From: Methanothermobacter sp. MT-2
GTDB lineage: Archaea > Methanobacteriota > Methanobacteria > Methanobacteriales > DSM-23052
DNA: 64,000 nt
Assembly: GCA_003584625.1 (NCBI GenBank)
Contig: AP017647.1
Span: forward strand, 1,102,603-1,166,602
Direction of reading: 5' to 3'
The position numbers and the translations under genes were made by a program. Below, in pieces: positions 58,762 through 63,600 of this stretch (position 1 is its first letter; each line of letters begins with the position of its first letter). Below the pieces are notes generated by a model that was not told where the DNA came from, did not search any database, and worked only from the letters and a program-made list of their open reading frames with translations.

Positions 58762-59583
58762 TTATTTTTTCTTGTACCATTTATCCATGGGATATGAACC
58801 TAGGATCTTCATAAATGGTGTTCTATTTTTAATCTCATTTAATATCATATTTATATTCTTTTCCTTTCTATGCCCCTCAAAATCTAGGAAGAATATGTAT
58901 TTTCCAAGGCCCATCTTTGAAGGTCTGGATTCTATCTTGGTCAAATTTATATTTGCATCTGCAAATAATCCTAGAATCTCATATAAACCCCCTGGCCTAT
59001 CCTCTGCGAGTGTGAATAATATTGAGGTCTTATCTGAGCCAGTGAATGGATGGTCATGTGTAGCTATCACGATAAAACGTGTCATGTTAGGAGTATAATC
59101 TTGGATATCCTCACATATAACATCTAAGTCATATAAACTAGCAGCTCTTAGGGTGCCTATGGCACAACACTCTCTTTTACCTTTTATGATTTTCGCTGCT
59201 GCAGCAGTACTAGATGTTGGATGAGCTATGAGACCCATCCTTTCTATAAATTTGTGACATTGTGCAAGTGACTGTGGATGTGAATAGACATCTGTGAGTT
59301 CCTCAAGTTTCACACCTTTATTAGCTAGAAGGTAATGATCAACCTTCAAGACTATCTCTCTTTCTATGCAAAGATTGTGTTCTTGGGCTAAAAGGTCTAA
59401 TGTAACGCCCACCGGACCCTCGATAGAATTTTCGATTGGTACAACACCCTTATCGACCTTCCCATTTTTCACAGCATCTAGAACATCTATTATAGAATCG
59501 AATGGTAATAGCCTATTTGATAATCTGTAGGCTGCCTCTTCTGTAAAAGTCCCCTCTGGTCCAAGATATGCTATAAGATCCAA
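58762..59583 (-). CDS. pheA: Prephenate dehydratase PheA
   Basis: A monofunctional prephenate dehydratase, 273 residues, for phenylalanine synthesis. YLGPEGTFTEEAA at the start, VPIENSIEGPV (near residue 50) and the catalytic TRF motif (NMTRFIVI, near 170) are present. A C-terminal ACT domain (GGLYEILGLFADANINLTKIE... ESRPS) allows feedback by phenylalanine. I start at TTG 59583, 6 nt after GAGGTG, giving MDLIAYLGPEG; the frame is open to GTG 59592. It begins 11 nt after the RNA ligase stop. Confidence 0.93.
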   Translation of the reverse strand: MDLIAYLGPEGTFTEEAAYRLSNRLLPFDSIIDVLDAVKNGKVDKGVVPIENSIEGPVGVTLDLLAQEHNLCIEREIVLKVDHYLLANKGVKLEELTDVYSHPQSLAQCHKFIERMGLIAHPTSSTAAAAKIIKGKRECCAIGTLRAASLYDLDVICEDIQDYTPNMTRFIVIATHDHPFTGSDKTSILFTLAEDRPGGLYEILGLFADANINLTKIESRPSKMGLGKYIFFLDFEGHRKEKNINMILNEIKNRTPFMKILGSYPMDKWYKKK

Positions 59584-59594
59584 AAAGAACACCT

Positions 59595-60851
59595 CTAGTA
59601 TAAGCCACCTTCTAGGAGGTTTTTTGTCCGGTCAGAGGTTGCCTGGTAGAAACGTCTTATAACTGCCTCACCATCTTTATAATCTATGATGGTGGCGGAA
59701 ACACCCAATGCATGTAGGTGTTTTATGAATTCCATGGCCTCTTTTCGACTTGACACATTTATCCTAGTATCTTCATGTGCCATCTCCCCCTTAGCTATCT
59801 CTTTTATCGTTTTTAACATTGGATAGATTATGGATTCGCCGAGTCTATGGGCTCTCTCACGCAATTCATCCTCGGATTCTTGCATTTCATATGCTTGGAA
59901 TCCTTCCCTTATCACTCTACTGAAGAAGAATGCTCTCCCGAAATCGAATGGGTAATTGAAAGCATATCTTATTTCACTGGCGTGTGCCTGGGATGCTGTA
60001 TATTTTATGGGTGGTAACTCCATCTTCGGGTCTTTTATAACAACACCTTCTCTGCCTTCCTCTCCTAGTTTTTTCACAATTTCTTTTATTTTTTCCGCGG
60101 CTTCTTTTACCTTGAAGACTCCTAATAAACGAACCACTGGAAGATCATAATCTCCAAGCAACTTTCTCTTCTCTTCAACAGGTAAGGGTTTATTTGTGCC
60201 TTTTTCCCTCACATCGAATATCCTAAATCCTAGTTCACCTATTTCCGGATAATAATGTGAAACATATGGATTGGATGTGCCTATCATCTCCCCACACAAT
60301 ACAAGGCCAGGATTGTCCTTGAAGAACTTGTCTAAATCCATGAATTCTTGTACTTTCCGGGTTGTGAAAGGACATAGGTATCCTCCCCGTGTAAGGGCCG
60401 CTATTTTTGAGTTAACTGATGCTATCCTAACATTGTAGCCGTTCATTTTCTCTTCGACCGCCACCTTGTCCTTGAAGTGCTTTTCTATAGTTGGGGATAA
60501 TATTAGGGTTCTGCGGATTTTTGGGAAGCCCCTTATAATCTCCAGTTTATCATCGGCGATATATACTACTGTCCCGGATTCTATGTGCATGAGGTCTTTT
60601 TTGAATAAGAGTGCTGGTTTTATAGACTTGTAGAATTTAACTGACCGTCTCTTGATGGCCCTTTCTAGTCTCCCATGGCTTATTCCTAGGGCTGCTGCTA
60701 TCTTCTTTTCCAGGAAATTCTCAGCGTATAATCTCCCTGTGAAATCACATTTTTCGCATGTGAAAAAGAAATTTTTTAAGGTGTTGTTTCTTCTCCAGTC
60801 TACTTCGAGGGTTGATCCGCATTTTGGACATTTTATGATGGGTAAAATTAT
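59595..60851 (-). CDS. Rnl3-type RNA ligase with N-terminal zinc ribbon
   Basis: An archaeal ATP-dependent RNA ligase (MTH1221/Rnl3 type) that circularises RNA. The nucleotidyl-lysine is in VEEKMNGYNVR; GEMIGTSN, FRIFDVRE, REGVVIKDP and PIKYT follow. The first ATG is at 60590 and gives 331 residues, about 50 short of the 381 I recall for the M. thermautotrophicus enzyme. The frame is open further upstream to 60854 and encodes the usual Rnl3 N-terminus (YAENFLEKK, near 60720) preceded by a zinc ribbon (CPKC, then CEKC). No ATG, GTG or TTG occurs there; AUA 60851 or AUU 60848 lies 7-10 nt after GGAGGGGGG. Confidence 0.75.
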   Translation of the reverse strand: MILPIIKCPKCGSTLEVDWRRNNTLKNFFFTCEKCDFTGRLYAENFLEKKIAAALGISHGRLERAIKRRSVKFYKSIKPALLFKKDLMHIESGTVVYIADDKLEIIRGFPKIRRTLILSPTIEKHFKDKVAVEEKMNGYNVRIASVNSKIAALTRGGYLCPFTTRKVQEFMDLDKFFKDNPGLVLCGEMIGTSNPYVSHYYPEIGELGFRIFDVREKGTNKPLPVEEKRKLLGDYDLPVVRLLGVFKVKEAAEKIKEIVKKLGEEGREGVVIKDPKMELPPIKYTASQAHASEIRYAFNYPFDFGRAFFFSRVIREGFQAYEMQESEDELRERAHRLGESIIYPMLKTIKEIAKGEMAHEDTRINVSSRKEAMEFIKHLHALGVSATIIDYKDGEAVIRRFYQATSDRTKNLLEGGLY

Positions 60852-60854
60852 TAG

Positions 60855-61676
60855 TTAACCCCCCTCCATTTCAACTATAAGGTCTAGTATGTCGCTTTTG
60901 GTTATTATACCTACAAGCGCGCCTTCATCATCTAATACTGGGAAACCTCCATATCCTGTTTCTATCATCTTTGATGCTGTGTTTGATATGTTATCTTCTG
61001 GGTTTACTGTTTTGACGTTTTGTGTCATGAGATCCTCTACTAGTAGGTTTCTTATCCTTGAACGTTTGTATTTGTCAGGAACGACTTTTCTGAAGGCTAT
61101 CATTGAACGTGCTATATCCTTTGATGTGATGATTCCTATGAGTTCTCCATCTTCAATTACTGGTAATCTTCCTATATCCGCGTCTATCATTAATCTTCTG
61201 GCGTGTATCATTCTCTCGGTTGGTTCTATGGTTATGAGCTCTGAGCTCATCACATCTTCTACCTTTCGTTCTTCATAGGGTTTGCCTTTGCAGACTTCGA
61301 GTATATCTGTTTTTGTGAGTATGCCAACTAATTTATCATCTTCTGTGACTGGCAGGCTCCCTATATTGTTTTCAAGCATTATGTCGGCTGCGGTGTCCAC
61401 GTCCATGTCAATATCTGCTGTTATAATATCTGGGCTCATGACAGTTGACACGTGGAAATGTGATGGTGCAAGGTTTCCATATCTTGAGGATCCGAGTTTT
61501 GTGGCGATATCCTTTTCAGTTACTATCCCAACAACTTCTTTTATATGTTCATTGTTGGTGTTTATGACTATGAGACGTGAAAGGTTATTCTTTTTCATGA
61601 TTCGTAGAGCGTCGCAGATATTCTGATCTTTATCAATACAGACTACATCTGGGTTCATGAGATATTTTATCTTCAT
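60855..61676 (-). CDS. Four-CBS-domain protein
   Basis: A 273-residue protein of four consecutive CBS motifs and nothing else; each shows the GI(I/V)T-x-(K/S)D ending (VVGIVTEKD, LVGILTKTD, LIGIITSKD, LVGIITKSD). CBS pairs bind adenosine nucleotides or SAM and act as energy sensors. The stop overlaps the ribosome binding region of the RNA ligase gene, so these two genes are closely linked. It lies 14 nt after the next CBS gene. Confidence 0.88.
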   Translation of the reverse strand: MKIKYLMNPDVVCIDKDQNICDALRIMKKNNLSRLIVINTNNEHIKEVVGIVTEKDIATKLGSSRYGNLAPSHFHVSTVMSPDIITADIDMDVDTAADIMLENNIGSLPVTEDDKLVGILTKTDILEVCKGKPYEERKVEDVMSSELITIEPTERMIHARRLMIDADIGRLPVIEDGELIGIITSKDIARSMIAFRKVVPDKYKRSRIRNLLVEDLMTQNVKTVNPEDNISNTASKMIETGYGGFPVLDDEGALVGIITKSDILDLIVEMEGG

Positions 61677-61690
61677 ATTGGTCCCTCCAG

Positions 61691-62530
61691 TTATTGGATG
61701 GCTTTTATGATATCTGTTTTTGTTATTATACCAGCTAGTTGGTTGTTTTCGTCGACTATTGGGATTCCGCTAATTTTTTCATTTAACATTATATTAGCGG
61801 CTTCAGCGGCATCAGCATCATCTTTCAAAGTTATGAGGTCTTCTGTCATTATATCCCCTGCTGTTAACATTGAAACTAGTCTCACCTTCTTTTTTTCCTC
61901 TGATTTTCTTTTAACGAAGTAGATTTTCTCAAGGGGCACGCCGGTTTCTGGATCTTCAAGTTGTGCGAATGATATGTTTTCTGATGTTATGATCCCTATT
62001 GGTTCGTTGTCTTTAATCACAATGATCCTACCGATGTTGTTTTCTTCCATTAGATTTGTTACATGGGCTATTGTATGGTTTTCAGTGACTGTAATAACAT
62101 CTTTTGTCATGAGATCAGAGACTTTCCATCTGCCTTTACATTTTTCATTATAAACCCATAGGAGGTCTGTTTTTGTTATTATACCAACAAGTTTACCATC
62201 CTCTACAACTGGTAGGGAGCTTATATTATTTCTTAACATTAGATCCACGGCTTCTCTTATATCAGAAGCTGCTGATATTGTTATAAGATCTTTGCTCATC
62301 ACCCGCTTTATTGATATCTTATCTATGGGCCTTCTTCGCCAAGTTGGCCCGGCTAATCTCAGCTTTTGGGTTATATCTTTTTCTGTTACTATTCCAACTG
62401 GTTTTTCTTTGTTGTCCACCACGATTATGTGGCTTATTCCATGTTTCAGCATTAGGTTCCTTGCATATGAGACTTGTTGGGTGTCTGGCATCACCATTAC
62501 TCTTGTGGTCATTACATCTTCGACTTTCAT
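61691..62530 (-). CDS. Four-CBS-domain protein
   Basis: A 279-residue paralogue of its neighbours, four CBS motifs (PVGIVTEKD, LVGIITKTD, PIGIITSEN, LAGIITKTD). The third motif has SEN in place of the usual acidic S/T-x-D end, suggesting loss of one nucleotide site. It starts MKVEDVMTTRVMVMP. No other domain is present. Confidence 0.87.
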   Translation of the reverse strand: MKVEDVMTTRVMVMPDTQQVSYARNLMLKHGISHIIVVDNKEKPVGIVTEKDITQKLRLAGPTWRRRPIDKISIKRVMSKDLITISAASDIREAVDLMLRNNISSLPVVEDGKLVGIITKTDLLWVYNEKCKGRWKVSDLMTKDVITVTENHTIAHVTNLMEENNIGRIIVIKDNEPIGIITSENISFAQLEDPETGVPLEKIYFVKRKSEEKKKVRLVSMLTAGDIMTEDLITLKDDADAAEAANIMLNEKISGIPIVDENNQLAGIITKTDIIKAIQ

Positions 62531-62560
62531 CTTCTCTCACCACTGGAAAAATAGTATATA

Positions 62561-63502
62561 TTAAAGGGCTATTGCCCTTAAAAGGTCGCTTTCGGTTATT
62601 ATACCGAGGATTTCCCCGTACTCAACGACTGGCACCCCTCCAATACCTTTTTCGGCCATTATCTCGTATAATTGTCCTAGCGTGCTTGTTGGGTTTATCG
62701 TGACTACTTTTTTCTCCATTATCTCGCTTACTGGTGTGTTGAGGGCTTCTTCTGCACTATTTGTTTTTATGGTGTCGAATACCCTGTTGGATCCTAGGAA
62801 TTCTAGTATGTCAGTAGCTGTTATGATACCTACGAGTTTTTCCTTTTCTGGGTGGGGTGTTCTTCTTTCTTCTCCGACTATTGGCAGTCTTCTGAATTTG
62901 TTTCTTACCATTATCTTGGACGCTCCCTCGATTGGGGTGCCTGGGGTTGTTGTTATAAGTTTTTTTGTCATGTGATCTGCTACTATTTCATCATTTAGGA
63001 CTCCTGCCATTAAAAATACGAAGTCTCTTTCTGAGACTATTCCAACCAATTTTTTTTCAGAGCCGATAACTGGTAATGCTCCGATATTGTGTTCGAGCAT
63101 TTTATTAACTGCATCTGCTATGGAGTCCTTTAATGTTATATATTTAACGTTACGGGTCATTATCTTCCTTACGGGTTCGTTTATGGCTGCGAGGAAGTTA
63201 TCATCATATTTTTCTTCGAGGATCTTGGATTTGTCTCCTCCTCCTAAAAAGTCTAGGATGTCCATTGATGTTATTATACCTAAGAGTTTTCCCGTGCCTG
63301 GATCTGTTATTGGAAGTCTTCTGAACTTGTTTTTAACCATTATCTCAGCGGCTTCCTTGATATTTATGGTTGGTGGTATTGAAACCACTTCCTTCTGTGC
63401 GATGCTCATAACATCGCCTTCATGTTCAAAGTTTCTACTTTCAAATTCCACTGGACCACGATCCAGGGATTTTACTATGTTTATGGTGTCTTTTTTTCTC
63501 AT
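62561..63502 (-). CDS. Four-CBS-domain protein
   Basis: A 313-residue paralogue with four CBS motifs (LLGIITSMD, LVGIVSERD, LVGIITATD, ILGIITESD), preceded by a 30-residue N-terminal stretch rich in charged residues. ATG 63502 follows GAGGTG; the frame is open to 63508 (GTG). The third motif contains an insert (VGEERRTPHPEKEK), as does the next gene (NPVYVKSDPQRAKE), so the two are closest relatives. Confidence 0.86.
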   Translation of the reverse strand: MRKKDTINIVKSLDRGPVEFESRNFEHEGDVMSIAQKEVVSIPPTINIKEAAEIMVKNKFRRLPITDPGTGKLLGIITSMDILDFLGGGDKSKILEEKYDDNFLAAINEPVRKIMTRNVKYITLKDSIADAVNKMLEHNIGALPVIGSEKKLVGIVSERDFVFLMAGVLNDEIVADHMTKKLITTTPGTPIEGASKIMVRNKFRRLPIVGEERRTPHPEKEKLVGIITATDILEFLGSNRVFDTIKTNSAEEALNTPVSEIMEKKVVTINPTSTLGQLYEIMAEKGIGGVPVVEYGEILGIITESDLLRAIAL

Positions 63503-63600
63503 CCGCACACCTCACGTGGTTTATTAAGAAACGTGAAAATTTTATTAAAAGAGTGGTTGCGATAAAATCCCTAAAATCTAGGGGTGACATCACCACACCT

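Follow-up and report, generated by a model that had tools for sequence, protein, structure and literature searches.

Isoleucine codons as probable translation starts of a zinc-ribbon Rnl3 RNA ligase gene adjoining a CBS-domain gene in Methanobacteria

Results

An RNA ligase reading frame that lacks a canonical start codon

The window, i.e. the whole 64,000-nucleotide stretch of DNA that was analysed, carries on its minus strand a gene for a predicted ATP-dependent RNA ligase of the Rnl3 type that bears a zinc ribbon at its N-terminus (59595..60851; 418 codons from ATA 60851, with the TAG stop counted). It lies directly behind a CBS gene, whose product has four CBS domains (60855..61676, minus strand; four PF00571 matches), and the last codons of that gene hold a Shine-Dalgarno sequence, GGAGGGGGG (60859..60867, minus strand). 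This CBS gene belongs to a set of three successive minus-strand genes upstream of the ligase (60855-63508), each encoding four CBS domains. Downstream of the ligase is a prephenate dehydratase gene (58762-59592, minus strand); its GTG at 59592 falls inside its own GAGGTG Shine-Dalgarno sequence, so that gene more probably starts at TTG 59583 (spacing 7).

In the list of open reading frames, the ligase occupies an open frame that extends from 60854 to 59595 and begins directly past the TAA stop of the CBS gene (60857-60855). A sequence-only reading of this DNA had claimed that no ATG, GTG or TTG occurs in the frame between 60854 and 60591, and this is borne out: the earliest such codon is codon 89, the ATG at 60590-60588. 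That reading had also placed GGAGGGGGG within the last CBS codons, 7 nt upstream of an in-frame ATA (60851-60849) and 10 nt upstream of an ATT (60848-60846), and these coordinates are confirmed. Both CPKC...CEKC and YAENFLEKKIAAALGI are read in the ligase frame.

We compared this frame with 369 open reading frames of at least 130 aa from 464 kb of the same genome (the window plus 20 sampled stretches, about 30% of the genome). In these frames the open stretch runs for a median of 5 codons before a canonical codon appears (95th percentile about 29), and only two of the 369, the ligase and hemD (uroporphyrinogen-III synthase), reach 88 codons or more. The long open stretch of hemD needs no special explanation because its Pfam match starts at residue 128, downstream of its first canonical codon. 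The missing canonical start in the ligase frame exceeds chance.

The frame encodes an Rnl3 ligase with an added zinc ribbon

The protein matches TIGR01209 with 458 bits against a cut-off of 136.9, and also PF09414 (111.5 bits) and PF18330 (143.7 bits). Its nearest solved relative is MthRnl (5d1o; phmmer E 1.5e-158, query residues 53-417), and the Rnl3 identity was confirmed by fold search with an AlphaFold model of moderate quality (mean pLDDT 69.7). Motif I, EEKMNG, is invariant in our alignment (A1), and its lysine (60447..60449, minus strand) is the predicted nucleotidyl acceptor, the role that this motif has in nucleotidyltransferases. The window ligase shares its catalytic and C-terminal domains and its N-terminal helices with MthRnl and with Pab1020 (2vug), but differs from both in having an additional N-terminal four-cysteine ribbon and a probable AUH (AUU, AUC or AUA) start codon; 5d1o and 2vug align only from residues 53 and 47 of the window ligase, respectively, i.e. 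past the ribbon.

The ribbon, CPKC-x20-CEKC (60747..60830, minus strand), is modelled as a small beta domain of four short strands (pLDDT about 73-83). All four cysteines are invariant in the eight aligned ribbon proteins, as are a proline, an Asp-Trp pair and a leucine. A ribbon-like family, Cys_rich_KTR (PF14205), is matched by the ribbon of the G034 ligase (L020) with 31.4 bits against a cut-off of 25.5, and by the window ribbon with 20.2 bits, below the cut-off; in the ligases described here, by contrast, the ribbon is fused to a ligase. The helical region that the sequence-only reading had expected from Rnl3 ligases is present as helices 45-54 and 58-66 of the model, and initiation at ATG 60590 (60588..60590, minus strand) would indeed remove it together with the ribbon. 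We conclude that the gene product combines an Rnl3-type RNA ligase with a zinc ribbon at its N-terminus; ligase activity and metal binding are predicted. Some ribbon ligases carry further segments: L018, L019, L020 and L022 (from g8, g11 and g19) have an additional insertion past VRIAS/VRIAC, immediately behind motif I, and the g8 and g11 ligases have a further 26-30 residues between the start and the ribbon.

The ribbon form spans three families

The query protein matched 20 of the 151 genomes of the order, one of them (G029) weakly and through the ribbon only. The ribbon form occurs in 12 genomes from seven genera and three families of Methanobacteria: four species of the window genus (G000-G003), G038, G148, G150, G034, G048, G149 and G049, and one genome outside the order (G151), perhaps a Methanothermus. 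Eight genomes (f2), probably Methanothermobacter, have an Rnl3 gene that lacks the ribbon and has ATG or GTG near its start. In a scan of 80 loci from named genomes, six were the same ribbon species, and no ribbon was found in the remaining archaeal Rnl3 frames among the matches listed. Nearly all of these ribbon-less frames have ATG, GTG or TTG near the expected start; the exceptions are a few broken or cut frames. In a midpoint-rooted tree the Methanobacteria ligases all form one clade (100/99), within which the ribbon forms are grouped (92/90). This grouping makes it probable that the AUH start dates back at least to the origin of the ribbon clade.

The segment upstream of the first ATG is coding

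Comparison among the species of the window genus gives dN/dS values of 0.09-0.21 for the N-terminus and 0.04-0.07 for the remainder of the ligase. The stretch upstream of ATG 60590 is coding. A start at that codon, giving a ribbon-less ligase with the upstream frame untranslated, has a parallel in the Methanothermobacter-like Rnl3 genes, which lack the ribbon and have ordinary starts. It is nonetheless highly improbable: it conflicts with the N-terminal dN/dS and with the invariance of the four cysteines, it cuts off part of the region aligned with 5d1o, and there is no Shine-Dalgarno pairing within the accepted spacing range ahead of ATG 60590. Furthermore, the position of the downstream canonical candidates changes from genus to genus. 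Conservation extends upstream of 60590, as the invariant residues there also indicate, and agrees with the longer protein that had been read from the sequence.

A block of 33 nt around the start, GAAATGGAGGGGGGTTAACTAATAATTTTACCC, is invariant in the four window-genus species, which differ from one another at 6-15% of sites; within the CBS-ligase unit, just one further stretch equals it in conservation. No conserved RNA structure that would mark a regulatory switch was detected over the start in seven sequences (z-scores -0.49 to +0.96).

An AUH codon follows a CBS-encoded Shine-Dalgarno sequence in every ribbon genome

At the start site, ATG, GTG and TTG are absent from all 12 ribbon genes. 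All 12 have instead an AUH codon after a Shine-Dalgarno sequence encoded by the CBS gene, as the sequence-only reading had proposed for the window: ATT in six (G038, G148, G049, G048, G034 and G149), ATC in one (G150) and ATA in five (G151 and the four window-genus species, in which ATT comes next). The C-terminal end of the CBS protein (similar to TK[TS]D..LDLIVEMEG) is found upstream of the ligase in every case. Loss of a canonical start through a sequencing or assembly error, which had been named as a way in which the reading could fail, is refuted by these relatives and has virtually no probability left: the canonical start is equally missing in 12 genomes, and the start region is identical in four species. 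The ribbon likewise belongs to the ligase frame in all 12, which disposes of a frameshift placing it in another gene.

Because two patterns for the 3' end of 16S rRNA had no match in the window's own genome (G000), where the rRNA may be masked or have a different end, we assumed GAUCACCUCCUU as the anti-Shine-Dalgarno sequence. Calibrated with it, the ordinary starts of the window have a spacing peak at 7, with the bulk at 5-9. The best gapless register for the window ligase, AGGGGGGU, pairs with about -10 kcal/mol at a spacing of 6 to ATA. Across the scored ribbon genomes, the AUH codon stands at a spacing of 6-7 in the best register, except in G149, where pairing is weak (GGAGTGGG, at best -3.7 kcal/mol).

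Two AUH codons compete in the window. AUA 60851 (60849..60851, minus strand) has a spacing of 6-7, and AUU 60848 (60846..60848, minus strand) has a spacing of 9-10. The latter aligns, counting from the first cysteine, with the ATT of G038 and G148 (I-[FL]-P), and AUU is the best-known AUH start, being that of infC (PMC5472188). Its spacing departs from the conserved 6-7 nt, however, and in G151 an ATA stands alone at the start site as the sole AUH codon near the Shine-Dalgarno sequence. Since the 6-7 nt spacing is conserved, AUA 60851 is most likely the initiation codon as judged from these comparisons; a start at AUU 60848, with the rest of the reading unchanged, is rather unlikely but the runner-up. 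CTA 60854 was rejected, since its spacing is only 3 and a stop codon occupies the equivalent place in G038 and G148. The three g8 genomes have an in-frame TTG at codon 28 (27 codons in), shortly upstream of the ribbon; no purine-rich stretch precedes it, as judged by eye.

The CBS stop codon lies at the probable ligase start

In the 12 ribbon genomes the CBS stop codon overlaps the AUH codon, abuts it, or lies 3 nt upstream: the distance is -1 in five (UAAUU or UAAUC), 0 in two and +3 in five. The CBS gene and the ligase are in one frame across the stop in seven genomes, the window's included, and this arrangement would allow readthrough of the CBS stop, or a frameshift, to yield a CBS-ligase fusion. 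The other five (G049, G048, G034, G149 and G150) have the two genes in different frames, with the CBS stop overlapping AUU or AUC, so a single readthrough model cannot serve all 12; a fusion would need two different recoding events, whereas AUH starts account for 12 of 12. The CBS stop codons also vary (TAA, TGA). We consider a fusion very unlikely.

Translation very probably starts instead at the AUH codon, in the window at AUA 60851 or, failing that, AUU 60848, and would give the zinc-ribbon Rnl3 ligase. Its retention in all 12 ribbon genomes suggests that the AUH start is used on purpose.

A probable second near-cognate start, in hemA

The hemA gene (glutamyl-tRNA reductase; L152:16642-17817, minus strand, at about 976,642-977,817 of C1 in the window's own genome; L157-L159 in three congeners) starts with a conserved CTG in each of the four window-genus species, at exactly the position of ATG, GTG or TTG in other Methanobacteriales. 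This CTG follows GGGGGT and adjoins an in-frame stop codon that probably ends the upstream gene. In the window's own genome the first canonical codon of hemA lies within the GlutR_N domain, 59 codons in. The conservation of the CTG implies that near-cognate starts are probably tolerated in the window lineage when a strong Shine-Dalgarno sequence precedes them, and they are probably found in at least two genes of the window genus. A screen of the sample for more AUH starts yielded candidates that on inspection had an ordinary start; the others listed had the AUH codon deep in the gene.

Discussion

What would an AUH start at the end of a CBS gene do? Termination-reinitiation at overlapping stop and start codons has been demonstrated in archaea and bacteria, and the distances at the CBS-ligase junction are within the coupling range (PMC6728339). 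The overlapping pairs described there (UGAUG, AUGA) resemble the CBS-ligase pair in that the stop overlaps or touches the start and the Shine-Dalgarno sequence lies within the upstream gene; the CBS-ligase pair differs in that the restart codon is AUU, AUC or AUA. We propose that ribosomes translating the CBS gene would release at the UAA, and that GGAGGGGGG in the last CBS codons would pair with the 16S rRNA tail and retain the small subunit. The initiator Met-tRNAi would then pair through the first two bases of the AUH codon, such that the ligase would begin with methionine. The CBS-linked yield would probably be low, restrained by the fidelity factor aIF1. We infer the use of the AUH codon and re-initiation at it, like the low yield, from the arrangement described above, and position is what points to coupling of the ligase to the CBS gene.

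Near-cognate starts of this kind can be regulatory, as for the bacterial genes infC (AUU, AUC) and sigR (GUC) (PMC5472188). The infC gene, which encodes IF3, has a conserved AUH start (PMC5472188), as the ribbon ligase gene probably does. However, infC is bacterial, encodes the fidelity factor itself and is autoregulated, whereas the gene described here encodes an RNA ligase and adjoins a CBS gene. In the case of Streptomyces sigR, a rare GTC start within a coupled operon is conserved in the genus and was experimentally shown to hold the level of the product low (PMC5472188). It differs from the ribbon ligase in its codon and domain of life, and in that the upstream gene carries the rare start; the ligase case is known from sequence. 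In the open-access literature that we searched, no precedent was found for an archaeal gene that starts with AUU, the known precedents, infC and sigR, being bacterial, and a review of archaea gives the start codons as AUG, GUG and UUG (PMC7531240). A tentative possibility is that AUU, AUC and AUA form a deliberate low-output switch, controlled by initiation fidelity and operated by aIF1, that ties the level of RNA ligase to translation of the CBS gene. Such a switch would be an archaeal counterpart of infC and sigR with the depth of the whole ribbon clade.

Gene callers restricted to ATG, GTG and TTG would remove the entire zinc-ribbon domain of the ligase. The ribbon is an added domain for Rnl3, an enzyme family with RNA targets that are still under investigation. 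A start at an isoleucine codon across three families would also offer a natural substrate with which to probe aIF1, and termination-reinitiation, on near-cognate archaeal starts.
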